A program made the position numbers and the translations under genes. A stretch of 64,000 nucleotides of DNA, taken from positions 1,240,001-1,304,000 of the forward strand of contig JAMXDE010000004.1 of NCBI GenBank assembly GCA_026770025.1, written 5' to 3'. The notes under the pieces were generated by a model that saw nothing but the letters and a program-made list of their open reading frames with translations, did no database searches and was not told where the DNA came from. Position 1 is the first letter of the stretch, and each line of letters begins with the position of its first letter. This DNA is from Craspedostauros australis. Its lineage: Eukaryota; Bacillariophyta; Bacillariophyceae; Mastogloiales; Achnanthaceae. Below, piece after piece: positions 19,376 to 49,800 of this stretch.

Positions 19376-19469
19376 CTTGCTTGAGACCTGCTGCGAGTGC
19401 TGTCCAGTTGTATCGAGCAAGAGAGCTGTGGGTACGAGCTACATAGCAATATCCATGAGGACAGATTCT

Positions 19470-19551
19470 GTCTGGGGAGACCAAAAATGGCCATTTTGGG
19501 CTCAGGAGACAAAGTTACCCGGAGGTTCGCCAAAATCCGGTCTGAGGAGAC
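19470..19551. promoter_or_regulatory. left subterminal GTCT-AGGAGAC palindromes (putative transposase sites)
   Basis: Three related words: GTCTGGGGAGACC (19470-19482), CTCAGGAGAC (19501-19510) and GGTCTGAGGAGAC (19539-19551). They mirror those near the right end and are the most likely transposase-binding sites; they could also act on transcription of the element. Binding is inferred from position and symmetry only. Confidence 0.6.
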
Positions 19552-19844
19552 AATTTTCAAGTCCACGTGATAAATCTCCACGATAGGATTTTTCGGTCGA
19601 ATACTTCGACTAAAAGAAATTCTGCCAGCTTTTTGTTCTGACATCTCCTCCTCCAAGATTTTCTTCATCGTCATTGTTTCTTCGCTTTCCTCCGCATGGC
19701 AACAACCCTCCCCCTCCAACCTCCTTGCCTGCTGTGGTTCATTTCATTCCATCACCAACCTCGCACCTCCTTGCTTGTCATTCGCAGCATCCCCCATACT
19801 GCCTTCTTCTTCCAGCTTGCCTTCTTCGATACATCACCTTCATC

Positions 19845-22800
19845 ATGGCATCTTCTCGTCCGCCCAATGCTCCCAATGCCAATGATGACTTGCCCACAGC
19901 TTCCACTCCAGTTGCAACAATCGGCCATGGCAACGTCTCTCCATCCGAGCAGCTTCATCCCTTTGGACAAGTTTTGGATGATGGAATGGGTGATGCAGGC
20001 AAACACACCCATGAAGAAGAAGGAGATGGCATCTGTGTCAACAGTGATGGCGAGGGTGCGGTGCCTACAGTGGTGCCTCCAGATCCTGTTGGCGATTTTG
20101 GAGTCCAACCGTGCTCGCTTCCTGGCTACAGCCATCGCATCGTCCTCCCTCCGAAGAAGGGGAGTAGGGAGATCTCTGTGGAGTGGAAGGTGCTCTCGGC
20201 CTATGAGCATGCAACAAAAGTGACTGTTGGAGAAGCCCACAAGCTCGCTCTCCTCCATGCAAAGGAAGAGATTCGTTCACTGCGAACAGCCGTCTTGCAA
20301 CGCTTCCCCAAGAGTCCTCCTGGGTCTCCACCATACGTGCCAACACCCCATGACTTGATCCACGATGTGCTGGGCCCCACATCTCCCATTTTCATCCGTG
20401 CATTTGGCCCAAGCGGGCTGGGTTTCTCATATGCTGAGTACATGGAGTTCCTCTATGCCATCACATCACAGATGGTGGAAGGCTGCACCGTTCGTCGGCT
20501 CTACGATGGCGGCAACACTACCACGCTTCCCAGCTTTCCTGCCAGACAGCACTACGTCAATCTCTGGGATCGTATTCGACGCAATGGAAACCCTGTCTCT
20601 CGGAATGGTCATCGCTTTGTTTGGACCGAATTGGAAAGTGCTTTCAACTTGACGCTTGAGATTCTTTGTCTTCGGCATCGTTGCCCGAATCGGATTGTCA
20701 CATTGGATGATGACAAGGTCCATTGCAGCAGCCGTGCGGAGAGCAGCTATCTGCTTGGCATGAGACATACTCATGCAAATCGTAATGGGTAAGTGACGAA
20801 CAGCATTGTGTGTTTTGTTGCAGAGGGGTGGCATCTCCATTGCATATTTCAATTCCTCACCTCAGGTCTCCGTCTCGTTTCCGTCTTCTGCGTTCCTTCA
20901 GATTAACCCTGAACACTCTTGTCCAGTCTGCTTCTGGACTTGTTGTGGGGTTGGCTGCTTGCCGAGATGGGTTGGATGACGACACCTATCGGTTGTTCAC
21001 CCAACTAAAAGAACCAGATGGTTCTTTTCGAAATCTAACCCTCATGACAGATCGAGGATACAACTGCCACAGCACTACCGTCTTCCTCACTACCAGGGGT
21101 GCCAATCTGGAGGGTACACACATGCGAGCTGGATACCTACCATTCACCTTCGGCCCATCCATTGGCAAGGGTGCACTCCAGATGAATATTGGGAGGAAGG
21201 GGCCAAGGATGGTGCATAGCGCTGTCACCAACAGCATCGGCAAACGACAATTGACATGCTATGGATACCGTCTCAACGAACAAACTGTACTTGCACTCTC
21301 CACAAGATCGAGTGGCTTTGAGTGGGACCTCACCCTCACCAACGCCAGTGACCAGAAAAAGTACCAAGACATGGTGGAGGACAAGCATGGGAACAATCGA
21401 AGATCCCCACACTACCCACACTTCTTCCAAACATGCACTGTCAATCCAACACGCTCGTCGGCAGTCAGAGCTGCCATATCCCAAACTCCCCTTGGCGCAA
21501 CCGGCATTGTGGCTGCCGCATCCAAGAATGTGAAACAGCGTTGGGCAGACATGGTGTGGGATCTACCTGTGGATGGACTCACCTGTGGCCAGGGTGACCA
21601 TCTGTGGTTCGTCCACCGCCGCTTCGCGTTCACGAGCACCTCCACCTACAGCATGATACAGAAGGTGCTTGAAAGCGGAGAGTGGTGCAATGCTGACAAC
21701 GCCACAATATTCAATCAACCTGCATGGGAGTGCATTGGCTGCTACTTGGGATATGACGTGCTTGGCCGGAAGGCGAAGTACCTCCAAGCATTGCAAGCAG
21801 AAAAGGCGAGATTGCGAGCACTTGATTTATACTCCAAACTCACATCTCCCACCTTCGATTCCCGTCATGTTGAAATTGCACTTCTCTCCTCTCTCCGCGA
21901 CGATGCCCCTGAAGAGGATGCCTTCCCTGACAAAGACTTCATCGAACTCATGGCTATTTTTTACCGCAGCAAGGCCCAGCGGAGCAAAGCCACACGATGC
22001 AAAATGCTCCGCACCATTCTTGCTGATGACGACAAGGTTCGTCGGCGATTCCTGGCCATCAGCGACGCCTCCCTCAAGAAAGACCTTAAAGCTCGTCTCC
22101 CCAAGACCAACATAACAAAAATGCCACGAGAGAAGGTTGTGGAGAGATTGGTTGCCCTGGTGATGAAGGAGATCGAGCAGGAGCCTGGCCATCCATCCAG
22201 TTTCCAGGCAGGAAGCACCACTTCAGAGTGGATGCACAAGCTTGACCACGACCTCACGACTCTCATGTTACAATCGTGGTTCATGAAGTCGGTTCGGGGC
22301 AAGGCTGGAAAGCTCGCCAAGCTGGGCCACAAAAACGAAGCTCCCCTCATGAAGCAGGCCCTCCGCTGTGTTGGAGTGGGCGGCGAGGGAAGGCAAGTGA
22401 AGGCGACGTACCAAGTGGGGGTGGTGCGAAACACCGATGCACCGTACGCCCGCGCCTCCGTCGACTTCCTTGCAATCATCGGTGATCCAGAGGACGACAG
22501 CAACGATGAAGTCTTTGTTGTGGAGATCAAGACTCGGGCAACGACAGACACAGAAGACCTCGAAAGACGGCACCAGCGGAAGGCCGATTGGGAGCATGGG
22601 ACAGAGGGAAAGAGCCATGTGTTCGTGGATCTCCAAGACGACAAGTGGAGGACATTATTCGAAAAGAAATCAGAGATGATTCAACTGCTTCATCATGCCT
22701 TCGTCTTTGGGGTGACAGGGGCGATGATTGTAATTGGTACGTCCTTGTATGTAATGGATGGAGCTCCTGTCATGAATTTCAAAAGTCGATACGCGGTGCT

Positions 22801-24259
22801 CACTCCAACTGTTCTTGCTTTTCTCCACTGATGCTCTCGAACCAACCTCCTCCTACCACCAGGTGATGCAACTGCTAACACCATAAGATCAATGTCCACA
22901 CACTTCCAACCCAATGTACTTCAATCATACGGAATCGTGCTACAAAATCTGTACAAGCTGAAGTTGGAGTTTGCATATGCGCACTCCACTGCCGCGTCCC
23001 GCGAGGCAGCGTCAGGCAAGACGCTGCGAAAGTATCTGAATTCGAAACGCAACCCCCACAGGGGCTCAACCGGGGGGCGACACATTGCGGCATTGACAGA
23101 AGAGGATGTATTCCACCAATTGATGATATGGAAGGCATGCCAGGAACTACCAATGCCGGTGCCAAAGGTCCACACCTTGGTTCCATCGTTTGTAGCCCGT
23201 TGGAATTCATTCAAGGGCGGCTCTGATTTGATGACCAGGATGATGAGGCAGCACAAGGTGCAGCCGCCATTCGCAACCTTCCAATGCCAAGCAGTGGTAC
23301 GGATTTTGGAAGTCATCCTTCTGTTTCTGCACAAGCTAATGCACTACTGTTGCACAGACGATGTTCACACGAATAGAGACCTGGACAACGCAACGGTGCT
23401 GCAGACCTACCGTAACATGCTGAATCATCGCAGCAGTGTTTCGGTTTCGTTGGAAACATTGCGAGGGGCATTTGGAGTCATCGTCGCCCAAGCTGCTGGC
23501 AGCAACAGAGAAGCAGCTGATGACGGCGAACGCGCAAACTGGTTTATTCAGGGAGCAATCAACAACACAGAAGACACAGATTCGGATACAGACAATCAAA
23601 TCTACGATGGTAGACCAACTGTTGAAGGCGAGGAGAGGGACGGAAAGAGCATCCGGAACCTGCTGTCTGGGAATCCAGCTGCCCCAACGCCCGCCATGGT
23701 TGCGCTCGAACGACGTCTCCGCACGGGCAGCCATGAGCCCATCTTTTGTGAAAACGTGAAGAAACCCTGCGTTGTATGTGGGGTTGTAACGAAATGGATG
23801 TGCATGCAGTGTCACTTTTTTGCCTGCGTGCCTCCCACTGCAAATCACAAGAGATGGGGAGTTGCAAATGGAGTGCATACCAGCATCGCAATGTCAAATC
23901 TACGAAAGAAGGCGAACGAAAAAATCATTGCAAGCAACACATGTTTCCGAATGCTCCACGGAAGCAACAGATCATGGACAAGGAAGACCAAGGCGGATTA
24001 CACTGAGTGGAGTGCGAAGCAACCGGACAGGAAGGGAGGGAAGCGCAAGACTCCGTCAGCAGTGCAAACAAGCAAAGATATCCAATCGAGCCAAGGAAGG
24101 AAACGAGCGAAACCCTCATCCCAGACTCCTGCTGAGACTTCACCAGCACCACAGAGACGGCGGACGCGCTCGGAGACAACTCCACAACGACCGCGAACGC
24201 GTGCAGCAGCTCAACAAGGAAAGTACAGCCATGGGAATGGGTCAAGATGTAACATATAG
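19845..24259 (+). CDS. piggyBac-like transposase with inserted PD-(D/E)XK nuclease domain (3 exons, 1391 aa)
   Basis: Exons 19845-20788, 20902-22736 and 22863-24259 join in frame (4176 nt). Exon 1 (314 aa) is an unrecognised N-terminal region. Exon 2 opens with piggyBac-like catalytic blocks: CRDG (D337), LMTDRGYNCH (D365) with GANLEGTHMRAG after it, then LTCYGYRLNEQTVLALST. Its C-terminal part carries SVDFLAIIG (D836) and VFVVEIKTRA (E856, K858), the D-x19-E-x-K pattern of a PD-(D/E)XK nuclease. Exon 3 returns to piggyBac: ARWNSFKGGSDLMTRMM (D1048, the third catalytic Asp block) and a zinc-binding tail with CVVCG, MCMQC (C1229, C1232, C1240, C1243) and CFRMLHG (from C1287). The end is very basic. 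So the nuclease sits between the second and third catalytic Asp blocks. Family assignments are by motif reading and the splice joins are predicted. Confidence 0.78.
20789..20901 (+). other. intron 1 of the transposase gene (predicted)
   Basis: The donor is GTAAGT at 20789, after ...AATGG. Three AG acceptors are all in the same frame: 20823, 20865 and 20901. The last follows the longest pyrimidine-rich tract and is preferred (113 bp). The other choices would add 12 or 26 residues. Confidence 0.65.
22737..22862 (+). other. intron 2 of the transposase gene (predicted)
   Basis: The donor is GTACGT at 22737 and the acceptor, after CTCCTCCTACCACC, ends at 22862; the intron is 126 bp. Splicing removes the stop at 22829-22831 and joins VIG to DATANT in frame. 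Without splicing the nuclease exon would end at 22831 and exon 3 would be a separate 455-codon frame. Confidence 0.7.
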
Positions 24260-24624
24260 CAAAGTAATAGCACACAAACATCCATCAAATACGGGGTGGT
24301 GTATCGTTCCTGTGAAGAGGCGTGGTCACAAATCATTGTGATGCAAGAGGAAGAACGCTGCGGAACGATCATGTCCTGTAAAGAGCGTGGAGGACATGGA
24401 TAAGCATGCAATGAACGGATGTATACGAAGAACTGTGATGAGATGCAAGTGGCTCAATGCATCCAGAGAAGCATTGAGCCATAGAAACAGGAGGGCATGC
24501 CAGGACATTGAGAAATCGGAAAAAACGATATGAGGGGGGGGAAAAAGTGAGCACGAACAAATAGTCTTAGTCGAGGTGGTCGAAGAAAATGCCATCGCGA
24601 TAAAACATCGCGTTACTTGATTTT

Positions 24625-24677
24625 GGTCTGAGGAGACCGATTTTGGCACCCCTCGAATCCGCTTGGTCTCCTGAGAC
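24625..24677. promoter_or_regulatory. right subterminal GTCT-AGGAGAC palindromes (putative transposase sites)
   Basis: GGTCTGAGGAGACC (24625-24638) and GGTCTCCTGAGAC (24665-24677) mirror the words near the left end, including the neighbouring ATTTTGG. They lie 37-90 bp from the right terminus. Confidence 0.6.
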
Positions 24678-24714
24678 AATTTTGGACTTTTATCGTGGAC
24701 GAATTTCCTCATGG

Positions 24715-25350
24715 ATATGAAATGTACGACTGTGATTTCTGATACAGGCTGTCCCTTGTTCTTGATGCCTTCTCTCATTGACATCGGGGTATCTTTTGCC
24801 TTCGGGTTGCCTTCTTTGGTTGTTCGTGGCGGGATTCAGATTTGGTTGGTGGTGAATTGTGTTGGCGCCATCTCCGTGATTGCTTCGAGGCGTCTGACAC
24901 ATCAACACTGTGGAGGCAGACACCCACTCCTTCGACTCAACAAACAGGACACAAGTCAACAGAGAGCGTCGTTGCTTCCGCATCTCCATGTAGGCTTAAT
25001 GCATCGGAGTGTACACACGCTCTCTCTCTCGCTCGCTCTCCCTTGAGAATAGAGATTGCATCCTTCAGGAAGACAGACAGAGAGAACGAGAGAGAGACTC
25101 AGTTGAATCGAGGCATCGAGTCGATCGCGACGATGTCGTCGCTCTTCCAGACAACCAGACAGCGCCCAACGTCCCAACAGAGATCTACAAATAGACCGAC
25201 GTTTGGTTCTGAAAGAATGGTGGTTCGACGTGCTTTGGCCGACTTGCTCCGCTCGCACACACTCGTACCCACGAAGGTGACTGCAATCAGTCTCTCGAAC
25301 TTTCATTCTCCAAAATTTGAGTCGCTGCCATTCGTCCAACGGTTGATACG
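24715..25350. other. intergenic with CT/GA-rich microsatellites
   Basis: Between the transposon and the duplicated block. Contains CTCTCTCTCTCGCTCGCTCTC-like sequence at about 25018-25044 and a GA-rich stretch at about 25075-25110. The overlapping open frames here show no domain. Confidence 0.5.
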
Positions 25351-25941: not shown

Positions 25942-28155
25942 ATGTCGCGTCCACTGGGTCGTGCCTTTTCTGTCCTTCACAATGCTTGTCGATCAGGCAA
26001 ACTGGACAGAGTCCGGCTCCTGGTCCCGGCTGACCAACACAACGACAGCATAAACACCAAAGACGAACAAGGCAATACCCCATTTCATCTCGCTTGCATG
26101 GAGGGGCATTTGGGCGTGGTTGAGCACTTGGTTGAGTCCATTCCAGAGAGCATCGACTTCACCATCAAGAATACAAATGGTCAAACACCATGGCAAGTCG
26201 TTTGTGCGATGGGGCACACTAGTGTGGCTCAGTATCTGGCCAAATCAGCGCGCTTCAATATGGATATCAACTCGCAAGAGGCAAATGGTGACACAGTTCT
26301 GCATCTTGCGTGTCGCCGCGGGAGCACGGACATGGTGAGATTCTTGGTTGAGTCACACGATGACACCTTGGACATCAACGTGATGAACAAAGCTGGCGAG
26401 ACTCCATTCGGATGTGCCTGCGCACTTGGATGGCAAGAGATTGCTGGGTACTTGACTGAATCGGGCGTGCTCAATGTGGATGTCAACCTGCATGGCGAAG
26501 ATGCGTTGTCCCCTTTTCATGCTGCTTGCAGTCATGGCCATGTGGACTTGGTGAAATATTTGATTGAAACAGAGCAATTGGATATTGATGTGAATGGAAG
26601 CAGCGGGCGAAACAACGACACAGCGGTTCATCATGCTTGCCGGGGTGGCCATGTAGATGTTTTCAAGTGGCTGATCGAGTCTGAGAGAGTCGGTCTTGAT
26701 TTCAGCGCCAGGAATACGTACGGGGAGACAGCGTTGCACGTTGCCTGCCGCGAGAAAAGTAGTACCGTGGTGAAGTGCATGGTAGAGTCGGATCCAGCGA
26801 ACTCCAGCATCAAGATCCAAAACAATTATGGACAAACTCCGCTTCACCAAGTCGTGCACTCTGATTCTTTGGATGCGATGGAACACCTTCAGAAGTTTGA
26901 CCAATTCAACGATAGTGTCAACCTGAAAGACAATGGAGGCAGAACAGTGCTCCACCTAGCATGCCAGTACGGTAGCAGATCCATGCCGTCTTCATTGTTG
27001 GAACGTCGCAACGACGTGATTGACGTCAACATCCAAGACAATGATGGAAAAACAGCCCTTCACCATGCCTGTGGAAAAGATAGCTCGCGACAACTGGAAC
27101 CTTTGGTTGCATCAAGCAAAGGTTTACTGGATGTCAATGTTCGAAACAACGACGGCGACACTCCTATCCATCTTGCCTTACAGCACGCCTCCTGCCGTCT
27201 CTTGCTGTCAACATACGCAGACGCGATTGACTTCAACATCCAAAACAACAAGGGTGATACTCCTGTTCATATCGCATGCAGACGTAAGTGTGAAGATACC
27301 TTCCGTAAGTTGGTGGAAGCGTCCAAGGGCAACATCGACTGGAACATCCGAAACAACGAAGGGAACGCCCCGCTCCATGTTGCTTGCGAACATTCGGGTT
27401 CTTACGCAGATATCGCTAGCGATATCGTTTATCTCAAGGAGTCACATGTCGACGTGAACATCCAAAACAACGATGGCGACACTCCGCTTCATATTGCGGT
27501 TCGGGGATATGGCGCCGGGATCGGGCTTGTGCTCAGAGGAGGTCGAGACAGATTCGACTTCAACTTGCGGAACCACCAAGGTAAGACCCCGTTTCACATT
27601 GCCGTGAAGAAAATCGACCGGGAAGACTTCAGAGACTTTTTATCAGAGTCCTGTGGTGGGAACATCGACCCAAGCATACCATTCACCGACGATGATGCGC
27701 CGTTCCACAGAAAGAAATTTTGGAACAAGATCGATAACAGAGGACTCGAATCTCTGATGTACCAGAATCGGGCAAGCATTAACTTCAACGTGCAAAACAA
27801 GAAGGGAGACACGGCGCTTCATGTTCTCTTGCGCATTTGCTACGAGACAAAAGTTGACGGAGTCATGGAACTGTTCCCAAGGACTGTCAGGGTGGACATT
27901 CAAAACGCCAACGGGGACACTGCCCTTCATGCTGCTTGTGCGCGTGGAGACATTGGCATTGTCAGGGCTCTATCGAAATACAAACAAGATCACTGGGACT
28001 TCAACATCCAAAACAATGACGGCAACACGCCGCTGCACATTGCTTGCGCAAAGGGTTACGCCAACATTTCTGAATATTTGCTAGAACTGGACGGAGCTGA
28101 CATCAAGATTGATCTGAAAAACAACGATGGGGTCACTGCGCTTCACATGCCATGA
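25942..28155 (+). CDS. ankyrin repeat protein, copy 1 (737 aa, about 20 repeats)
   Basis: Intact single-exon gene starting MSRPLGRAFSVLHNACRSGK. Almost the whole length is ankyrin repeats of roughly 33-38 residues, with canonical turns such as GNTPFHLACMEGHL, GDTVLHLACRRGS, GETALHVACRE, GDTPVHIACRRK, GDTALHAACARGD and GNTPLHIACAKGY. They are linked by D-x-N-x-x-N-N-D-G loops (for example DVNIQNNDG). One degenerate unit (DDAPFHRKKFWNK, about residue 580) interrupts the series. There is no signal peptide, membrane segment or catalytic domain, so the role is presumably protein binding. It converges on the METTL17-like gene (stop-to-stop gap about 170 bp) and is duplicated as a unit with it. Confidence 0.93.
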   Translation: MSRPLGRAFSVLHNACRSGKLDRVRLLVPADQHNDSINTKDEQGNTPFHLACMEGHLGVVEHLVESIPESIDFTIKNTNGQTPWQVVCAMGHTSVAQYLAKSARFNMDINSQEANGDTVLHLACRRGSTDMVRFLVESHDDTLDINVMNKAGETPFGCACALGWQEIAGYLTESGVLNVDVNLHGEDALSPFHAACSHGHVDLVKYLIETEQLDIDVNGSSGRNNDTAVHHACRGGHVDVFKWLIESERVGLDFSARNTYGETALHVACREKSSTVVKCMVESDPANSSIKIQNNYGQTPLHQVVHSDSLDAMEHLQKFDQFNDSVNLKDNGGRTVLHLACQYGSRSMPSSLLERRNDVIDVNIQDNDGKTALHHACGKDSSRQLEPLVASSKGLLDVNVRNNDGDTPIHLALQHASCRLLLSTYADAIDFNIQNNKGDTPVHIACRRKCEDTFRKLVEASKGNIDWNIRNNEGNAPLHVACEHSGSYADIASDIVYLKESHVDVNIQNNDGDTPLHIAVRGYGAGIGLVLRGGRDRFDFNLRNHQGKTPFHIAVKKIDREDFRDFLSESCGGNIDPSIPFTDDDAPFHRKKFWNKIDNRGLESLMYQNRASINFNVQNKKGDTALHVLLRICYETKVDGVMELFPRTVRVDIQNANGDTALHAACARGDIGIVRALSKYKQDHWDFNIQNNDGNTPLHIACAKGYANISEYLLELDGADIKIDLKNNDGVTALHMP

Positions 28156-28326: not shown

Positions 28327-30397
28327 TCAACCCCACCTGCTCTTGCGCGCCGACGCGTAGATGCCTGGCGCGTAGTCGTTCATGCTCTTCGTGACCCGAC
28401 CACGGATGATGCGTCCCGGAGCAGCGCAGTAGTCAATGTACACATGACCGCGCTTCTTCAATGGCGCATGGACGATGCGGCCGAATGCCCCGCGGTTGTC
28501 GTCGCCGTGTAGCAGCTCCAATCCCAACTCGTCATCGTCCACCTCCACAAATTCCTCTTCCAAATCGATCGCCTGCTGATAGTACTTCTCCAACGTCGGG
28601 ATGTGCTGATCTTTCGCGCCCCGGTGCAAGTTGGCAAGGATCTTGGTGGCATTCTCCATCTTGCTTTCGTGATGCTGGGCAGCATCATCATCGTCGTCAT
28701 TGTCATGGCCCGCATTCGTTGCAGTCTTCGCGCCCTTGTTCGCCAGCCGCTTTTGGACCACCAAATAGGAAAACTTCTCGCCTTTTCGTTTGTGTCCCTT
28801 GCCAGGCATGGTTTGCACGAAGCTGCAAAATGAGGAATCGTACAATTCCGTTTCCGACATCAATCCAGCAGAATTGGCCATCAGGTCAATATAGTCTGCA
28901 TCTTCGATTGAGCCTTGTTCCCTGTCATCATCGTCACTCTCGTCCGTACCATCGAAGAAATCAGCATCACCCTCATCATCATAATCGCTGTCGTTGTCGT
29001 CACTTTCGAATCCATCCATACCATCGACGTCGTTGTCATCTTCGATCTCTTCGAAATCGTCACCGTCAAAAAAGTCTTGCTCGATATCTTTGCCACCCGT
29101 CAGCTGGACGGACGATGGTCGCGAGGAATTCTTCTTGTGACGTTCCATGGGGCATTGTCCATTGTGCGTGCAGGGCGCGATGACGTTCCTCCCATTCGAA
29201 ATCCGGATCCTCCGGCGGGCAGCAATCCAGAAGCATGTTGCGCGTGGCGCGCAGAGTGTTGAATCCATCCGGCGTGCCAGGTTCGATGAAGACGACGATG
29301 CCGCCTGGATTGCATCGCTGGAACAGGATGGCGGCGGCGGTCAAATTGGCCGTGACGTGAGGTATCTCCGATGCCGTGTACGAGGCGAGGATGAGATCGA
29401 ATCCGCCCGTGCTGGTGGACTCGGCAGAGAGGCTGCTACTGAAGGTTGTGCGAATGGTGCCGCCGTTGTCTTGATTGTGACCGCTGCTGCTGCCGCTGTT
29501 TCTGGAATGCTCCAAAAGACGCTCCGAGCATTCTCTCATGCTGTGCGATGGTTCTATGCCATGGATCCAATCGATGGAACCGCCAAAGACCTCCAGGGCT
29601 GCCGCCGATGCCGCGCCGCATCCAATTCCGAAATCCAGCACCCGCTGCGGTTTGCACTGCGTGAGGCTCTTGGCCTCTTGGAGCACCCTCTTGGCGATGG
29701 CGTAGTTGGAATCGAAGCGGAAGGTGAGGTCCGCGAGGGTTTGGTCCGGCCCATAATACACCGGCGGGAACTTGGCGGGATCAAGCTGGTGGTTGCTGGC
29801 ACTGCTTTTGTCACCAGGATTGACCATGGCACGGCGGTCGCGTTCGCGGAAGACCGACAATCTGCGCTGCGTCTTGAGCACACGCTCGTAGTTGCGTCGC
29901 AGCTGGCGCTTTGTGCGCTGTCCGTCCTTGAGAATGTCAGCAATGGTGGATTCCAGATGTTCGGGCAGCTTGGGATCGGAGACCCTCCACGATGCTCTGG
30001 CTGACGGTCCGAGTAAGTTCCTCCACGTGTACGGAGCGGCAACGCCGGCGGAAGTTGTGCGCGTGGCGGACGCCTCTTCATCGGATACCAAGGCGTCACC
30101 TCCACCTGCATCCGTCCCGCGCGGTGCCATCGTGCTCATGGAGTTGAGCGTGGATGTGTTCGATGGCAGCAACTCCGTTGTCATACGCATGGTCGTAGTC
30201 CGACGGCAATGACGACCCATTGAGAAGGAGCGTCGGCAGCATCGATGATGATGATGATGATGGAGTCTCAGCCCCTCCCTTGCCACCGCTGCTTGCGCAG
30301 ATCTCGCCGCGCATCGTCGCATCCATGGTATCGATCGTATCGTCCTGTCGACAGAATGAGCACTGAACGCGTTGCTGCCACTTCGAATAATCACCAT
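28327..30397 (-). pseudogene. Rsm22/METTL17-like mitoribosome assembly protein, copy 1, frameshifted
   Basis: From the ATG at 30397 an Arg/Ser-rich, mitochondrial-presequence-like N-terminus leads to a Rossmann methyltransferase core: RVLDFGIGCGAASAAALEVFG, HGIEPS, FDLILASYTASEIP, GGIVVFIEPGTPDGFN. The C-terminal part, in another frame (to the stop at 28327), has the Rsm22 hallmarks: NVIAPCTHNGQCPM, then an acidic Asp-rich insertion, SFCSFVQTMPGKG, KFSYLVVQKR and APLKKRGHVYIDYCAAPG...RKSRWG. In METTL17/Rsm22 these cysteines bind an Fe-S cluster, and the protein acts in small-subunit mitoribosome assembly. The frame changes near 29187-29193, in a GGGAGG stretch: one base too many. No usable intron is visible there. 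It is either a pseudogene, an assembly error, or needs frameshifting. The N-terminal ORF alone would stop at 29066. Confidence 0.72.
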
Positions 30398-30440
30398 TGT
30401 GTTCTTTGTCGTGGTTGGAGTTGTTGGAGTTGTTGGCGCG

Positions 30441-32158
30441 GGTGTTCCTTTTGTGGTCCTGATCACCTTGTAGAGATGAACGTGGTCTGTGGAGTGTGGG
30501 AGGCTGAGCTGAGTGAGATGTATTTGCGCTTCGGTGGTGGTGGCAACGATCTTCGTGTTGTGGCGCCAAACGCAGCGTTCTCGTTTGTTGTTGGATTTCT
30601 TGATGTGGTTCGGGATTCAAGTCACGCACGACTTAATGGTGATGTATCGGTCGAGCGAATCGTGGAATACAAGATGGTCCGAGTTGGGACAGGCTTGATC
30701 CCAAAACGTTACGGGACTCAATTATTCTTGTCGCGTACATGGTACTTGGTATCCCAACCCGATACCGTGATGAAAGGCTACCACATGCATGGTGTGTAGT
30801 TGAACCACAATCCACGCTCAGCTCATCCTCCAGCTCATGCACTCCTGCCATCTGCCAAATCCGCCATCTTGCAGAACCTGCGTATGTCTTGAAGCATATC
30901 TATGTCACAGAACAAGCCTGCTCTGCAGATGGCATCCACTACTGACTGTGTGCGTGTGTGCAAGATTTCCACGACATGTCACTGAGCAACAGAGAACGGC
31001 TGAAGCACGACAGCATGACTCCCTACCTTTTTACTCGATTGTCCTGTCAATAGCAAGCTTAACACATAAAACAAGCAATCAGAAACACTCTTCACAGCTT
31101 ACTTCCAAGTCTACTAGAGTTACATCATCGTCTGACATAGCTTTGTCCTCAACATCAAACGGTGCCAAAGCCGGTTGAAGGACAGATCATCCTCCTGACA
31201 GCGTGCAAAAGACACGGAATACCAACTGTCCGAGTTGAATTTCGTAAGTTCCCGTTGTTCTCGCGAGTTGAAGTTCACTTAAGAACAGACTACGAGTTCG
31301 ATTTTCATGTCCTGTTGTGGCACGATCCGGAAGGGAAGGCCTAGCTGACTGCCAGACTCAGTGAAGCTGTTGATGCAGTTAGCTAGGGATGGCTGTCTGG
31401 GAAGATGGTAGTAGGTGACAATGAGTAGATTAGTGCTGATGTGCTGATCTTGAGTTGTGCTATTTGTTACATTGAATAATCTGCATTGTGAGTTGATCAG
31501 TTTAAGATGTAGGATGAAGAAACGATGTTCAGTTGGATGGTGCGGCTCTGCACTGACCCTCAGAGGTTCAGTGCTGAGAACAGACGAAGCTCCTCTCTCT
31601 CACTCTCTCCACTATCTGTAGTAGTTGTTCTGCACTCAAGTACAAAGCCTTGACATCTTGATTGAGGTTGCGATTGAGAACACAGGAGGGCAGGTGATAG
31701 GAATTACAGTTGGATTCCCTGCTTGTGTTGAAGCAGGGCGGATCTCTTCATTGTTGTCGAGTAGTGGTAGTAGGTGTCATAGCTGACAAGGGAATTGAGG
31801 CAAGTTGCAATTCAAGGATTCAGGGGAGCATACAGTTACCAGAACAGCTTGGATCGAGTCATTTGAGTAGTTTGAGTCAGTGATGATCAGTGAATGGAAA
31901 AAGGAGGAAAAAAGAATGGAGGATTTGCTGTTGTTGTAGCTGGAAGATTTCGCGCCGAAGTGAATTTCGCGCGGCAATCTGGGACACACTGAAATGGAAA
32001 GTAGTCTGTTCTTAAGTGAACTTCAACTGTGCCCGTCCATTTGTTGTTCAATCGTATGTGCTGATGGTAGTACAGACAACACAGTCACCGGTCGACGGTC
32101 ATATGAGGGGAAATACCATTTTTCGCAAGTTTTAGTGACGTCATGGTATATTCCAACT
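30441..32158. other. unique spacer between the duplicate copies
   Basis: About 1.7 kb separating the two direct copies. A 60-codon frame (31162-31344, ending HVLLWHDPEGKA) has no recognisable homologue. The main feature is the element-like segment 31266-32028 bounded by 28-bp inverted repeats. Confidence 0.5.
31266..32028. repeat. 763-bp segment bounded by perfect 28-bp inverted repeats
   Basis: AGTTGAAGTTCACTTAAGAA... (31266-31293) recurs as its exact reverse complement at 32001-32028. No target-site duplication is obvious, nor any coding capacity. It could be a MITE of unknown family or a hairpin-forming remnant. Confidence 0.6.
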
Positions 32159-32751: not shown

Positions 32752-34965
32752 ATGCCGCGTCCACCGGATCGTGCCTTTTCTGTCCTTCACAATGCTTGTC
32801 GATCAGGCAAACTGGACAGAGTCCGGCTCCTGGTCCCGGCTGGCCAACACAACGACAGCATAAACACCAAAGACGAACAAGGCAATACCCCATTTCATCT
32901 CGCTTGCATGGAGGGGCATTTGGGCGTGGTTGAGCACTTGGTTGAGTCCATTCCAGAGAGCATCGACTTCACCATCAAGAATACAAATGGTCAAACACCA
33001 TGGCAAGTCGTTTGTGCGATGGGGCACACTAGTGTGGCTCAGTATCTGGCCAAATCAGCGCGCTTCAATATGGATATCAACTCGCAAGACGCAAATGGTG
33101 ACACAGTCCTGCATCTTGTATGTCGCCGCGGGAGCACGGACATGGTGAGATTCTTGGTTGAGTCACACGATGACACCTTGAACATCAACGTGTTGAACAA
33201 AGCTGGCGAGACTCCATTCGGATGTGCCTGCGCACTTGGATGGCAAGAGATTGCTGGGTACTTGACTGAATCGGGCGTGCTCAATGTGGATGTCAACCTG
33301 CATGGCGAAGATGCGTTGTCCCCTTTTCATGCTGCTTGCAGTCATGGCCATGTGGACTTGGTGAAATATTTGATTGAAACAGAGCAATTGGATATTGATG
33401 TGAATGGAAGAAGCGGGCGAAACAATGACACAGCGTTTCATCATGCTTGCCGGGGTGGCCATGTAGATGTTTTCAAGTGGCTGATCGAGTCTGAGAGAGT
33501 CGGTCTTGATTTCAGCGCCAGGAATACGTACGGGGAGACAGCGTTGCACGTTGCCTGCCGCGAGAAAATGAGTACCGTGGTGAAGTGCATGGTAGAGTCG
33601 GATCCAGCGAACTCCAGCATCAAGATCCAAAACAATTGCGGACAAACTCCGCTTCACCAAGTCGTGCACTCTGATTCTTTGGATGCGATGGAACACCTTC
33701 AGAAGTTTGACCAATTCAACGATAGTGTCAACCTGAAAGACAATGGAGGCAGAACAGTGCTCCACCTAGCATGCCGGTACGGTGCCGCGTCCATGCTGTC
33801 TTCATTGTTGGAACGTCGCAACGACATGATTGATGTCAACATCAAAGACAATGATGGAAACACAGCCCTTCACTATGCCTGTCGAAAGGATTGCTCGCGG
33901 CAACTCGAAGCTTTGCTTGCATCAAGCAAAGGTTTACTGGATGTCAATGTTCGAAACAACGACGGCGACACTCCTATCCATCTTGCCTTACAGCACGCCT
34001 CCTGCCGTCTCTTGCTGTCAACATACGCAGACGCGATTGACTTCAACATCCAAAACAACAAGGGTGATACTCCTGTTCATATCGCATGCAGACGTAAGTG
34101 TGAAGATACCTTCCGTAAGTTGGTGGAAGCGTCCAAGGGCAACATCGACTGGAACATCCGAAACAACGAAGGGAACGCCCCGCTCCATGTTGCTTGCGAA
34201 CATTCGGGTTCTTACGCAGATATCGCTAGCGATATCGTTTATCTCAAGGAGTCACATGTCGACGTGAACATCCAAAACAACGATGGCGACACTCCGCTTC
34301 ATATTGCGGTTCGGGGATATGGCGCCGGGATCGGGCTTGTGCTCAGAGGAGGTCGAGACAGATTCGACTTCAACTTGCGGAACCACCAAGGTAAGACCCC
34401 GTTTCACATTGCCGTGAAGAAAATCGACCGGGAAGACTTCAGAGACTTTTTATCAGAGTCCTGTGGTGGGAACATCGACCCAAGCATACCATTCACCGAC
34501 GATGATGCGCCGTTCCACAGAAAGAAATTTTGGAACAAGATCGATAACAGAGGACTCGAATCTCTGATGTACCAGAATCGGGCAAGCATTAACTTCAACG
34601 TGCAAAACAAGAAGGGAGACACGGCGCTTCATGTTCTCTTGCGCATTTGCTACGAGACAAAAGTTGACGGAGTCATGGAACTGTTCCCAAGGACTGTCAG
34701 GGTGGACATTCAAAACGCCAACGGGGACACTGCCCTTCATGCTGCTTGTGCGCGTGGAGACATTGGCATTGTCAGGGCTCTATCGAAATACAAACAAGAT
34801 CACTGGGACTTCAACATCCAAAACAATGACGGCAACACGCCGCTGCACATTGCTTGCGCAAAGGGCTACGCCAACATTTCTGAATATTTGTTAGAACTGG
34901 ACGGAGCTGACATCAAGATTGATCTGAAAAACAACGATGGGGTCACTGCGCTTCACATGCCATGA
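32752..34965 (+). CDS. ankyrin repeat protein, copy 2 (737 aa, about 20 repeats)
   Basis: Same length and domain layout as the gene at 25942-28155. I count about 27 amino-acid differences, all in the first ~390 residues. There is a dense cluster around residues 340-390 (for example ACRYGAASMLSS versus ACQYGSRSMPSS, NIKDNDGNTALHYACRKDCS versus NIQDNDGKTALHHACGKDSS). From there to the C-terminus the proteins are identical. Both copies therefore seem to be maintained as coding sequence. Confidence 0.93.
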   Translation: MPRPPDRAFSVLHNACRSGKLDRVRLLVPAGQHNDSINTKDEQGNTPFHLACMEGHLGVVEHLVESIPESIDFTIKNTNGQTPWQVVCAMGHTSVAQYLAKSARFNMDINSQDANGDTVLHLVCRRGSTDMVRFLVESHDDTLNINVLNKAGETPFGCACALGWQEIAGYLTESGVLNVDVNLHGEDALSPFHAACSHGHVDLVKYLIETEQLDIDVNGRSGRNNDTAFHHACRGGHVDVFKWLIESERVGLDFSARNTYGETALHVACREKMSTVVKCMVESDPANSSIKIQNNCGQTPLHQVVHSDSLDAMEHLQKFDQFNDSVNLKDNGGRTVLHLACRYGAASMLSSLLERRNDMIDVNIKDNDGNTALHYACRKDCSRQLEALLASSKGLLDVNVRNNDGDTPIHLALQHASCRLLLSTYADAIDFNIQNNKGDTPVHIACRRKCEDTFRKLVEASKGNIDWNIRNNEGNAPLHVACEHSGSYADIASDIVYLKESHVDVNIQNNDGDTPLHIAVRGYGAGIGLVLRGGRDRFDFNLRNHQGKTPFHIAVKKIDREDFRDFLSESCGGNIDPSIPFTDDDAPFHRKKFWNKIDNRGLESLMYQNRASINFNVQNKKGDTALHVLLRICYETKVDGVMELFPRTVRVDIQNANGDTALHAACARGDIGIVRALSKYKQDHWDFNIQNNDGNTPLHIACAKGYANISEYLLELDGADIKIDLKNNDGVTALHMP

Positions 34966-35136: not shown

Positions 35137-37219
35137 TCAACCCCACCTGCTCTTGCGCGCGGACGCGTAGATGCCTGGCGCGTAGTCGTTCATGCTCTTC
35201 GTGACCCGACCACAGATGATGCGTCCCGGAGCAGCGCAGTAGTCAATGTACACATGACCGCGCTTCTTCAATGGCGCATGGACGATGCGGCCGAATGCCC
35301 CGCGGTTGTCGTCGCCGTGTAACAGCTCCAATCCCAACTCGTCATCGTCCACCTCCACAAATTCCTCTTCCAAATCGATCGCCTGCTGATAGTACTTCTC
35401 CAACGTCGGGATGTGCTGATCTTTCGCGCCCCGGTGCAAGTTGGCAAGGATCTTGGTGGCATTCTCCATCTTGCTTTCGTGATGCTGGGCAGCATCATCA
35501 TCATCATCATCATCATTGCCATGGCGCGCATTCGTTGCAGTCTTCGCGCCCTTGTTCGCCAGCCGCTTTTGGACCACCAAATAGGAAAACTTCTCGCCTT
35601 TTCGTTTGCGTCCCTTGCCAGGCATGGTTTGCACGAAGCTGCAAAATGAAGAATCGTACAATTCCGTTTCCGACATCAGTCCAGCAGAATTGGCCATCAG
35701 GTCAATGTAGTCGGCATCTTCGATTGCGCCTTGTTCCCTGTCATCATCGTCACTCTTGTCCGTACCATCGAAGAAATCATCATCCTTGTCATCATGGTCA
35801 TAATCATCATCATCATAATCGTTGTCGTCACTTTCGAATCCATCCATACCATCGACGTCGTTGTCATCTTCGATCTCTTCGAAATCGTCACCGTCAAAAA
35901 GTCTTGCTCGATATCTTTGCCACCCGCCAGCTGGACGGACGATGGTCGCGAGGAATTCTTCTTGTGACGTTCCATGGGGCATTGTCCATTGTGCGTGCAG
36001 GGCGCGATGACGTTCCTCCCATTCGAAATCCGGATCCTCCGGCGGACAGCAATCCAGAAGCATGTTGCGCGTGGCACGCAGAGTGTTGAATCCATCCGGC
36101 GTGCCAGGTTCGATGAAGACGACGATGCCGCCTGGATTGCATCGCTGGAACAGGATGGCGGCGGCGGTCAAATTGGCCGTGACGTGAGGTATCTCCGATG
36201 CCGTGTACGAGGCGAGGATGAGATCGAATCCGCCCGTGCTGGTGGACTCGGCAGAGAGGCTGCTACTGAAGGTTGTGCGAATGGTGCCGCCGTTGTCTTG
36301 ATTGTGACCGCTGCTGCTGCCGCTGTTTCTGGAATGCTCCAAAAGACGCTCCGAGCATTCTCTCATGCTGTGCGATGGTTCTATGCCATGGATCCAATCG
36401 ATAGAACCGCCAAAGACCTCCAGGGCCGCCGCCGATGCCGCGCCGCATCCAATTCCGAAATCCAGCACCCGCTGCGGTTTGCACTGCGTGAGGCTCTTGG
36501 CCTCTTGGAGCACCCTCTTGGCGATGGCGTAGTTGGAATCGAAGCGGAAGGTGAGGTCCGCGAGGGTTTGGTCCGGCCCATAATACACCGGCGGGAACTT
36601 GGCAGGATCAAGCTGGTGGTTGCTGGCACTGCTTTTGTCACCAGGATTGACCATGGCACGCCGGTCGCGTTCGCGGAAGACCGACAATCTGCGCTGCGTC
36701 TTGAGCACACGCTCGTAGTTGCGTCGCAGCTGGCGCTTTGTGCGCTGTCCATCCTTGAGAATGCCCAGCAATGGTGGATTCCAGATGTTCGGGCAGCTTG
36801 GGATCGGAGACCCTCCACGATGCTCTGGCCGACGGTCCGAGCAAGTTCCTCCACGTCTACGGAGCGGCAACGCCGGCGGAATTTGTGCGCGTGGCGGAAG
36901 CCTCTTCATCGGAAACCAAGGCATCACCTCCACCTGCATCCGTCTTGTGCGGTGCCATCGTGCTCATGGAGTTGAGCGTGGATGTGTTCGACGGCAGCAA
37001 CTGTGGTGTCATGCGCATGGTCGTAGTCCGACGGCAATGATGGCCCATTGAGAAGGAGCGTCGGCAGCATCGATGATGATGATGGACTCTCAGCCCCTCC
37101 CTTGCCACCGCTGCTTGCGCAGATCTCGCCGCGCATCGTCGCATCCATGGCATCGATCGTATCGTCCTGTCGACAGAATGAGCACTGAACGCGTTGCTGC
37201 CACTTCGAATCATCACCAT
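35137..37219 (-). pseudogene. Rsm22/METTL17-like gene, copy 2, with several lesions
   Basis: Compared with copy 1 the N-terminal part (from the ATG at 37219) has a nonsense TAG at 36857-36859 and an extra base near 36763. The shared frameshift before the Cys motif is also present. Downstream, an A-run has five bases (35896-35900) instead of six. This puts the frame back in register, so a 600-codon frame runs from 36939 to 35137 through the methyltransferase core and the C-terminal KFSYLVVQKR and HVYIDYCAAPG blocks. The APCTHNGQCPM motif is read out of frame and lost. The Asp-rich insertion also differs by whole codons (GAT repeats). The product would lack the metal-binding cysteines and the presequence, so it is probably non-functional. 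Confidence 0.75.
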
Positions 37220-46897: not shown

Positions 46898-49800
46898 TTA
46901 TTTTTTTAGTCCCTCCATTGCGGCTCTGACACGTTCCAACAATTGTGTCCTCACATTTTGTTCCACCAAGTCAGGAGATTCCGTATTTTCCTTCATTGTG
47001 TGTGTCTCGCACGCAATTCGCTCCGAGGCTTCGTTTTCTTCTTGTCGCAGCACGATTTCCTCCTCTTCTGATCTTGTTTGTTGTGCAGGCACGATTCCTG
47101 CATCAGCATTGTTTGCGTTCGTTGGGAGTGGGGGGATTTTTGTGTTCGATGTGTTCGATGCGTTCGTTGCGTTTCGTTTGATCGTACTTTCCGGGGTACG
47201 GATGTTCGCGGGCTTCGGTTTCGTGCGCTGATATGAAGCGGACATGTACTGCTTCACTCGCATTGGGTTCACGTGTACCCGTGCATACCAGTCAGTCTTC
47301 ATTTCCGTGGTCTCCATGCACCGCTGGTATCCCTTGTACTCCGTTGGCCTGTTCTTCGGATCCGCGCATGCCACTCTGCAAACCTCTTCCAGCACGTTCA
47401 CAAGGCAGGGGCGAATGGGCTCGTTTCGTTGTACAGCTTTTGCAGCCCAGCCAGGTTCAGCCAATTGCGGGTGTTCTATTGTTGCTGTGGTGTCCTGTAG
47501 CACAGTACTTACATCAGGGGTCTCCAAGGCTGCCATGTTGATTGCTTCGAGGTACGTCAGTGCCTTGCTTTCGGTGGCACTCTTCGCGAACCTGAGAGTC
47601 TTTTTCTCCTTCCTCGGTGATGTTGCTGCGAGCGGCTCCTGTGTGGACTGGCGTTCTATCATGATAGGAACGTCAGAATTCATGATGTCATAGTCTTCCC
47701 ATTTAGCTTCCTCCACACGTACTGGAGCAGTGACATTTGAAGCCACAAGCAAGTCTGAGTAGCCGTTTCCGTGCCGGACCTCGTGGGTTGATCGCACATT
47801 CATGCCTTTTGCGCGGAACCTCATGTGTGCATTCGTCTTGTGCATCACACAGCAACCTTCCAAATCCGACGTGTCAACCAAGACAGTTGTAGTACCTCTG
47901 ATATTTCCCATTTGCAATGCGTCGAAGATCTCATGTTCGGTTTGAATTTTGCCACCGTTTTGCATGTAGGATCGTGGCATGATAGCGATGTAGGCGAAGT
48001 GAGTGTCGATTCGCCCATTGCCAGTTTGGGTTTCTGTGTAGATCCAAACGATGAATTGGGGAAGCCCTTTGGCTGCCGCATCCTTGTTAATCCGTGATGA
48101 GACAAGCGCGATGTGCTCGTGGCTGGCGAAGCAGCCTGCGTTGTCCGACTGCAGGATAATTTCTGTCACTGATGGCAGGAGATCGCGTACCTTCTTCTGG
48201 ATGATTTTGAGTAGTCCTCCAACTTGAAGCGTGTCTTGGGTGGGACGGCCATGAACAATTATGTCCACAAAGCGATAGGTGAATTTGTCATTTTTGCAAG
48301 CGACAATCATGACACCAAGCAGCGACATGCCCTTCTTGCCCCAGTACTCTGTCTGCGATTCTCCTTGTGCCATCGGCAGAATCTTCTGCTTATGGTCGAT
48401 GACGACGTAGGCACACTTATCATTGTTGTTGATCTTGGCCTTGTACTTGTTCATCTGATCAAATTGAACCTTTGCTCGAACTTGGTGTGCCATGTACGCA
48501 GTGATCTCGTTGTTGAAGCCTGGTACCGCTTCCAGCATCGTGTGTAGTTCATCTGCGTGGTCGCATAGATGATTGGCCTTGAGCGTCTCGATGAATGGTG
48601 CGATGCGATCATCCATGAATCGCATCACTTGTCCACATCTGTTGCATACTTTGCCTTGTTGATCATGAGCGATGAGAGGAAGGGCGTTGGCATCACACTC
48701 TGTGGTTACTGTAGGAGGATCAATGACCGTGCATGTTGTGTGGTGCTGGCAGGCGCTGTTGTGTTTTCGGTGCCGAGTGTAGACTTAGCCTGCTTCATTT
48801 TTGAATCCTTGCGAAGGGCGAAATGAGTGCAGTGCATCGGGTCTTCTTCGCACTTGATCTGCATGTGCGGCGTGGTATACTCCCACTTGAGGAATGTGAT
48901 CATAAGGTCCAGATCGCGCAACAATTTCTCACAGGTTTGAATATGCTCCACGGTTAGGTCGTCATGTCCGTCATCACCGTTGAATGAATCCTCGAGTAGG
49001 GTATTCAAGCACACGAGCATCTCCTTCAGCGTCTTGGTTGCCATCCAGAAGTAGTTTTCAAAAGAGGAGAGACCAGTAATCACTTTGCCTCTGCGTGTGA
49101 GCAGGCCCGTCATTGCTCGGAATGCTGGCTCACCGACTGGAATGTTCGTCGTAGTCTTGTACATGTGGAACAGCTCGCCCACACTCGTTCTGCCACATTC
49201 GAATACTGGCATGTTTTCAAATATCACCCCTCCCCACTTGATGCTGTGACAAAGGCCTGACTTGTATGTGGTTGTGTTGCTGATGAAGGACACCACGCAG
49301 GCCAAGCTGTATGCGCTGACGCGATAGTCATGAACAGCAGCACCAAGCACGTTGCCCTTGCGCAAGAGCTCGTAGTAGTTGCGCAGAGTGAGGAGCTGGC
49401 CCCACGTGATGGTGTATTGCTCTGGCAAGAGGCCGAGATGCTGAACGTCAGGAAGTTCGCTCTTGTGTCGCTAGAGGAGGTTAGTACATTGGCGTGGCGA
49501 GGCAGACATGGCAAGAATGCACCTTGCTGTGCGTGCAATGTTCTTCTCGCCGACGAGGCAAATCGTGTAGAGGTTGGGAGCCAGCTTGATAGGAAGCAAG
49601 TCTACCCCCGCGCGCACGAATGCCACCACCTGTTCCATTTGAGGAACTGGCAAGTTCATTGCCGGAATCAGGGCTTTCCACAGCGCATTGGAGGCCACCA
49701 CGAAGATCTTCTTCGCTTTGCTCCACACTTGCTTGTCGGATTTGCGCCCCAATACAAATCCGCAACGAGGAAAGTCGGCCAGCATAGTCGCAAGTTGTTT

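Follow-up and report, generated by a model that had tools for sequence, protein, structure and literature searches.

In the bacterial Tn7 system, the PD-(D/E)XK nuclease TnsA is partnered with the DDE transposase TnsB, as separate or end-to-end proteins. The ends of piggyBac transposons read 5'-CC, as do those of the element described below. The available part of the structural report on T. ni piggyBac places the catalytic domain at residues 263-457, with D268, D346 and D447, and an insertion domain of about 60 residues (372-433) after the fifth strand of that domain (PMC7351741). In KolobokE, the nuclease lies downstream of the transposase domain (PMC9587614, available portion), and Kolobok elements are described, in the text accessible, with a TTAA target-site duplication (TSD), 5'-RR ends and a C/DxxH signature between the second Asp and the last Glu. 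ISL2EU elements, of the PHIS superfamily and grouped with PIF/Harbinger, mostly carry YqaJ in a second open reading frame (ORF) and have an AT dinucleotide TSD (PMC4482050, in part). The subject of this report is a transposon in Craspedostauros australis, found in a stretch of 64,000 nucleotides (contig JAMXDE010000004.1, positions 1,240,001 to 1,304,000, forward strand; hereafter the window), whose predicted protein appears to hold an exonuclease within a piggyBac-like transposase.

The predicted protein and its nuclease insert

The predicted protein has 1391 codons, read on the plus strand from three joined exons in the region 19845-24259. Its parts, in window positions, are:
19845-20788, plus strand: exon 1, with the N-terminal region and the first acidic block TLDDDK (D288-D290)
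20789-20901, plus strand: intron 1, GT-AG, phase 2
20902-22736, plus strand: exon 2, with the second acidic block MTDRGY (D365), GTHMR and VLALST, then the nuclease insert
21590-21637, plus strand: N-terminal nuclease motif QGDHLWFVHRRFAFTS (Q545, W550, R554, T559); hhalign expectation value (E) 4.1e-4, 0 of 150 decoys
22211-22735, plus strand: nuclease catalytic core, with E794 of GHKNE, D836, E856-x-K858 and Q909; hhalign E 1.2e-4, 0 of 100 decoys
22737-22862, plus strand: intron 2, GT-AG, phase 1
22863-24259, plus strand: exon 3, with the KGGSD block (D1048), the CxxC/CxxC/C..C..H Cys-rich domain, a basic tail and the stop

Twelve GT-AG combinations keep the frame open across the three long plus-strand stretches of this region, and the 1391-codon model is preferred because its acceptor at 20901 and its donor at 22737 are homologous sites in diverged copies. 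The splice models of the relatives, and the alignments, use GT-AG sites chosen by eye. Eight copies were modelled (the window copy, L033, L036, L038, L039, L040, L041 and L042) and, like all family members compared, they come from one genome, a 74.8-Mb assembly. Both introns have the identical place and phase in all eight, and the seven relatives are 24-57% identical to the window copy exon by exon, with nuclease segments at 41-63% and first exons at 24-54%. On predicted splicing, one conserved three-exon gene encodes the whole protein. The original prediction, made from the window sequence, had joined these exons in frame to the same length, and that model was reproduced; the residues that it numbered (D365, D836, E856, K858 and D1048) are all exactly where it put them.

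In each of the eight copies modelled, a single open frame runs from the DRGY block through the nuclease. All eight keep residues E794, D836, E856 and K858 unchanged, and likewise the DDDK block, KGGSD and D365, with L038 reading DCG in place of DRG. In the window protein, GTHMR occupies residues 386-390 and CVVC/CMQC/CFRMLH residues 1229-1292. The ratio of nonsynonymous to synonymous substitution rates (dN/dS) relative to the window copy is lowest for the nuclease, at 0.16, and 0.20-0.27 for the other segments (five segments, nine copies, with the near-identical L010 left out), where the pairs are non-independent and broken copies are included. The frame is uninterrupted in four of 11 full-length copies (the window copy, L010, L015 and L017), and the other seven have at least one internal stop. 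In one subfamily (L041, L075, L077 and L079), the N-terminus carries tandem units of about 24 residues with a 72-bp period, in an array whose length seems to vary among copies.

As judged by profile comparison, the insert is a PD-(D/E)XK nuclease of the YqaJ/RecE/lambda-exonuclease type. Fourteen family sequences were compared by hhalign with 14 exonucleases, namely the host YqaJ gene L054 and 13 phage proteins including lambda exonuclease (H37, annotated as Cas4, was left out), and the core comparison scored 36.1, where the best of 100 column-reordered decoys scored 19.4. The catalytic E...D...E-x-K residues align in register with those of YqaJ and are invariant in all eight members, and the core keeps G-x3-E (E794), D836, E856-x-K858 and Q909 in eight aligned members. 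A control comparison of the family nuclease with piggyBac profiles was negative. Upstream, the motif Q-x4-W-x3-R-x4-T, which in the window reads Q-G-D-x2-W-F-x2-R-R-F-x2-T-S, matches the exonuclease N-terminus with a score of 29.6, the best of 150 decoys scoring 23.0. In lambda exonuclease, the Arg of this motif binds the 5'-phosphate. The motif and core segments are collinear with YqaJ, and the Q, W, R and T are invariant in all eight; in the last nuclease helix, a Q aligns with the phage enzymes at a non-significant E of 0.4. The nuclease of two of the eight members, the window member not among them, matches PHROG_434, a RecE-like recombination exonuclease family, at a best E of 4.7e-5; with the whole of exon 2, L040 matches at E 6.5e-5 and L041 at E 0.029. 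The exonuclease domain in the insert appears to be complete, with a long extra stretch breaking it. The PD-(D/E)XK nuclease originally predicted is thus assigned to a family by its hhalign profile, and its extent is larger than stated, since Q545, W550, R554 and T559 are added.

Two scans of viral contigs yielded no relatives. A match of one member to the viral alkaline exonuclease PF01771 (E 0.029) served only as a lead to the N-terminal motif. A match of one of eight exon-1 members to the protealysin propeptide PF16485 (E 2.4e-4) was dismissed as a chance single-member match, as were weak tail, IQUB, Sigma54 and other single-member matches. Ahead of the nuclease core, exon-2 residues of about 704-734, ASLKKDLKARLPKTNITKMPREKVVERLVAL, look SAP-like by eye, and the phage exonucleases L066 and L073 begin with a short segment similar to it by eye. 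L054 (G000 C25:34761-35165) is the sole YqaJ gene among the matches that a PF09588 search of the genome listed (E 3.5e-19); it lies outside the transposon family and adjoins an ORF that resembles a reductase by eye.

The blocks around the nuclease follow the piggyBac order, with TLDDDK, then DRGY, GTHMR and VLALST, then WNxxKGGSD, and lastly CxxC-CxxC-C. The three Asp blocks (DDDK, the D of DRG, and KGGSD) are kept in all eight copies, the last as GG-x-D. The C-terminal Cys-rich domain that had been predicted is borne out as CxxC-x7-CxxC-x4-C...C-x4-H, a putative zinc domain whose six Cys and one His are invariant in all eight. Among spliced cores, one of seven matches PF01609 (DDE_Tnp_1) at E 1.9e-5, and with exon 2 alone L042 matches at 1.3e-4. 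By hhalign, the whole core compared with canonical piggyBac gives a non-significant E of 0.29. Region by region, the part with the first and second Asp blocks gives E 0.013, a score that one of 150 decoys reaches; the addition of two members brings this to E 0.0087, reached by 0, 1 and 1 of 80 decoys in three settings. The GGSD region gives E 0.045 (3 of 150 decoys as high), with KGGSD in register with the GGVD block, and the Cys-rich region gives E 0.049 (6 of 150). These region-wise matches all fall in the expected order. The evidence is suggestive of a piggyBac-like DDD part, which is not filed here as a piggyBac member: of the label "piggyBac-like" in the original prediction, the motif order stands, PF13843 and the TSD speak against it, and the profile scores are borderline.

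The whole nuclease probably separates the second acidic block of a piggyBac-like DDD catalytic domain from the third, and it appears to sit where DDE transposases carry an insertion domain. Nesting, as opposed to a downstream position of the nuclease, follows if D1048 is the third catalytic residue. The predicted placement inside the catalytic domain therefore holds as a position between the DRGY and GGSD blocks, and nesting in an RNase H fold would hold only if D1048 is catalytic.

Ends, target sites and mobility of the element

Comparison of copies places the element at 19453-24714, or at 19449-24718 with its TSDs. Its terminal features, including subterminal GGAGAC repeats, are:
19449-19452: left TSD, ATAT, from copy comparison and the empty site of the sister copy L026
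19453-19461, plus strand: left terminal inverted repeat CCATGAGGA (9 bp), from sequence, common to sister copies
19472-19557: left subterminal repeats CTnnGGAGAC, candidate transposase-binding sites
24626-24677: right subterminal inverted repeats GTCTGAGGAGACC / GGTCTCCTGAGAC, from sequence comparison
24706-24714, minus strand: right terminal inverted repeat, TCCTCATGG on the plus strand, from copy comparison
24715-24718: right TSD, ATAT, from copy comparison

A search of the genome with the exon-2 protein gave at least 102 matches, which are pieces of copies, at 100% to 28% identity. At 25 loci examined, 21 distinct left ends were flanked by ATAT in 20 cases and ATAG in one (L022 and L020 have their left ends at one and the same place, counted once), and 13 distinct right ends by ATAT in 12 and ATAG in one. 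Both flanks agree in all ten copies in which both ends were read, including one ATAG/ATAG, and a paralogous uninserted site for L026 (C34:429389-429627) holds a single ATAT. Therefore, insertion produces a 4-bp TSD, with ATAT preferred. The neighbouring copies L022 and L020 have one ATAT in common between them. An empty-site search for the window copy gave only its own two flanks and one partial match, and a search for the ends of two other subfamilies produced no clear boundary. The window copy differs from L010 at one of 4880 bases and the flanks of the two differ; therefore, the family moved recently. In short, the window copy is an intact member of a recently active DNA transposon family with an ATAT duplication. 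The original prediction of a mobile cut-and-paste element holds good for mobility, by way of the TSD, with the whole transposon as the feature.

The same internal deletion, at about window positions 22443-24141, is present in L020, L022, L023, L026, L027, L028 and L032. It is probably also carried by L021, L024, L025, L029 and L030, in which the exon-2 match stops at the same residue and the end-to-end length is equal. The deletion takes out D836, E856, K858 and D1048, with E794 just before it, and the TSDs of deleted copies match wherever both ends were read. The spread of the deleted copies implies a transposase acting in trans, and these copies are a non-autonomous family mobilised in trans.

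A second, multicopy short derivative, of the L039 subfamily, lacks the DDE core and retains, besides the nuclease core and the Cys-rich domain, a piece of the N-terminus:
G000 C27:479200-484700, C88:25400-30400, C30:585400-590600 and C12:1603700-1608700: short derivative copies L055-L058
The nuclease Asp is replaced by Asn (SANF for SVDF) in all four copies read, as if the encoded protein could bind ends without cutting.

In the window, a tandem duplication apparently adjoins the transposon, with nearly identical ankyrin-repeat ORFs of 737 residues at 25942-28155 and 32752-34965. Each is followed on the opposite strand by a similar ORF that is methyltransferase-like by eye (29066-30466 and 35137-36939). 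An ORF at 46898-48628 on the minus strand resembles, by eye, part of a retroelement polyprotein.

Proposed mechanism and alternative readings

The best explanation combines the nested architecture with the following mechanism, and is given a rough probability of 0.6. The DDD domain would cut the element at its CC...GG ends, join it to ATAT sites and leave the 4-bp duplications, and the C-terminal Cys-rich domain would bind the transposon ends. The tethered nuclease would load at the donor site, on the 5'-phosphorylated flanking ends left there, and degrade them 5' to 3'. Such resection could steer repair of the donor gap to homologous copying from the sister or homologue, which would restore the element at the donor site, so that copy number would rise. 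Resection of 5' ends at the donor break is, as the role of the nuclease, a tentative assignment.

Several results weigh against this explanation. Neither of the Pfam families named in the original prediction was matched: PF13843 (DDE_Tnp_1_7) by none of eight exon-2 members or seven spliced cores at E up to 10, with five of five canonical piggyBac proteins from the same genome matching as a control, and YqaJ (PF09588) by none of the window exons or family members. The window exons match nothing in Pfam at E up to 1, the best PHROG match of the window protein is no better than E 0.19, and hmmsearch of the family profiles against PDB sequences gave chance matches or none. For the nuclease segment, AlphaFold2 with a single sequence as input gave an unusable model, with a predicted local distance difference test score of 37. 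R554 lies 240 residues before E794, far beyond the spacing in phage enzymes. The whole core compared with a wider piggyBac set scores 27.83 (E 0.035), the best of 60 decoys scoring 27.77; each piggyBac comparison taken alone is near decoy level, and the target duplication is ATAT, not TTAA. Deleted copies without D836, E856, K858 and D1048 have multiplied, and the nuclease is dispensable in cis. The piggyBac transposase itself forms and opens hairpins, according to the part of the structural report available, and a second nuclease is not obviously needed (PMC7351741).

These points bear on several other readings, two of which question the architecture. The nuclease may not be nested at all, with the triad completed upstream by another acid and the order being transposase domain, nuclease and C-terminal tail, as in KolobokE. 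An invariant E-W at exon-2 position 260 (E575 of GEW), ahead of the nuclease core, offers a candidate acid, and the profile support for the GGSD region is, by itself, weak at 3 of 150 decoys. However, this invariant E comes only a few residues after the N-terminal motif matched to the nucleases, so that a transposase residue would follow a nuclease motif, while KGGSD is invariant in all eight copies and in register with the GGVD block of piggyBac. There is no invariant His from D365 to the nuclease core, so the Kolobok C/DxxH signature is absent; the ends are 5'-CC rather than 5'-RR, and the TSD is not TTAA. The non-nested order is judged unlikely. That the nuclease ORF is the neighbour of an unrelated transposase, whether by chance read-through or as one of two genes that adjoin or overlap, is very improbable. 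The joined model does rest on predicted splicing, exon 3 has its own ATG and a long ORF, and lone exon-3 fragments occur; yet the DRGY block and nuclease are in one open frame, and splice sites and phases are kept in every copy modelled. In addition, of 76 exon-3 places in the genome, 68 have a nuclease match no more than 1.5 kb upstream. A nuclease-free sister was sought in the genome and none was found: of the eight places without such a match, the two that were read, C20 and C76, are lone exon-3 fragments with no other family match in the surrounding 5 kb, which itself argues against separate genes; at C3:3625967 a nuclease match is about 9 kb away; and the remaining five (C6, C26, two on C55, and C65) include three weak matches (E 0.0012 or worse).

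Two further readings accept the nuclease as part of the protein and give it another task. It might act on the transposon ends during excision, cutting or trimming the non-transferred strand in the manner of TnsA, rather than at the donor gap. TnsA-TnsB is a known partnership of DDE and PD-(D/E)XK enzymes, and the nuclease is under purifying selection (dN/dS 0.16). The contacts of the piggyBac insertion domain, as far as the available part of the report describes them, suggest that the placement could allow DNA contact at the catalytic centre (PMC7351741). On the other hand, the relatives matched, in a comparison with YqaJ, RecE and lambda-type enzymes, are phage recombination exonucleases with the Q..W..R..T motif, and a self-complementary 4-bp TSD is what excision through hairpins of the piggyBac type, made by the transposase itself, would leave room for. 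End processing seems somewhat unlikely. That the nuclease is a target-repair or host-defence module hitch-hiking on the transposon, for example by degrading competing elements or foreign DNA, is improbable. The YqaJ/RecE enzymes are phage recombination exonucleases, and the L055-L058 derivative lacks the DDE core and keeps its nuclease core, along with the N-terminus and the Cys-rich domain; however, its nuclease has lost the Asp in all four copies read, and nesting within a transposase argues for coupling to transposition.

Comparison with known transposons and exonucleases

In searches of the open-licence literature, no paper listed concerned a piggyBac-like transposase that carries a nuclease of YqaJ or lambda type. 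It is conceivable, at slightly less than even odds, that this is a previously undescribed architecture, possibly its own superfamily between piggyBac and the IS4 type, in which a complete lambda-exonuclease-type nuclease replaces the insertion domain and one complex would cut, transfer, resect and target ATAT. The family has been kept across deeply diverged subfamilies of one genome and was recently active. With the nuclease and the transposase in one polypeptide, and the nuclease apparently built into the catalytic domain, its role is testable with single-residue mutants. If the nested reading is true, it would extend the range of what DDE transposases are known to carry as an insertion domain. 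KolobokE, KolobokD and ISL2EU, in the portions of their descriptions available, carry accessory exonucleases.

The TnsA-TnsB pair, likened to the window protein from its general description only, has in common with it the partnership of PD-(D/E)XK and DDE enzymes. With YqaJ, RecE and lambda exonuclease the window protein has in common G-x3-E, D, E-x-K and the N-terminal Q..W..R..T in the same order; those enzymes are free-standing, at about 200-365 residues in the 14 aligned, whereas here the nuclease is nested, with 240 residues from the motif Arg to the core Glu. ISL2EU is similar as a eukaryotic transposon with a YqaJ-type exonuclease, and the part of its description available agrees with the original prediction that its YqaJ is a separate protein (PMC4482050). 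In contrast, one open frame here takes in both the nuclease and the DRGY block, and the TSD is of 4 bp.

Kolobok elements, in the text accessible, likewise have a 4-bp, AT-only palindromic TSD. They are set apart by description only, with ATAT, 5'-CCATGAGGA ends and no conserved C/DxxH here, and, unlike KolobokE as partly described, the candidate last catalytic residue is Asp rather than Glu and the nuclease lies ahead of it. The likeness to piggyBac, within the available parts of the two reports, extends to the three Asp blocks, the final GG-x-D, the Cys-rich C-terminus and a 4-bp, palindromic, AT-only TSD (PMC7351741, PMC9499001). The piggyBac elements have a TTAA target and match PF13843, whereas the window family has ATAT and no PF13843 match. 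Where piggyBac has about 60 residues, described with no mention of a nuclease, about 470 residues, bearing the nuclease, separate the VLALST/FEWDL segment from exon 3 in the window protein (PMC7351741, available part). Transposons with an accessory exonuclease are already known; what appears to be new, for a piggyBac-like element, is the ATAT specificity together with the nested architecture.

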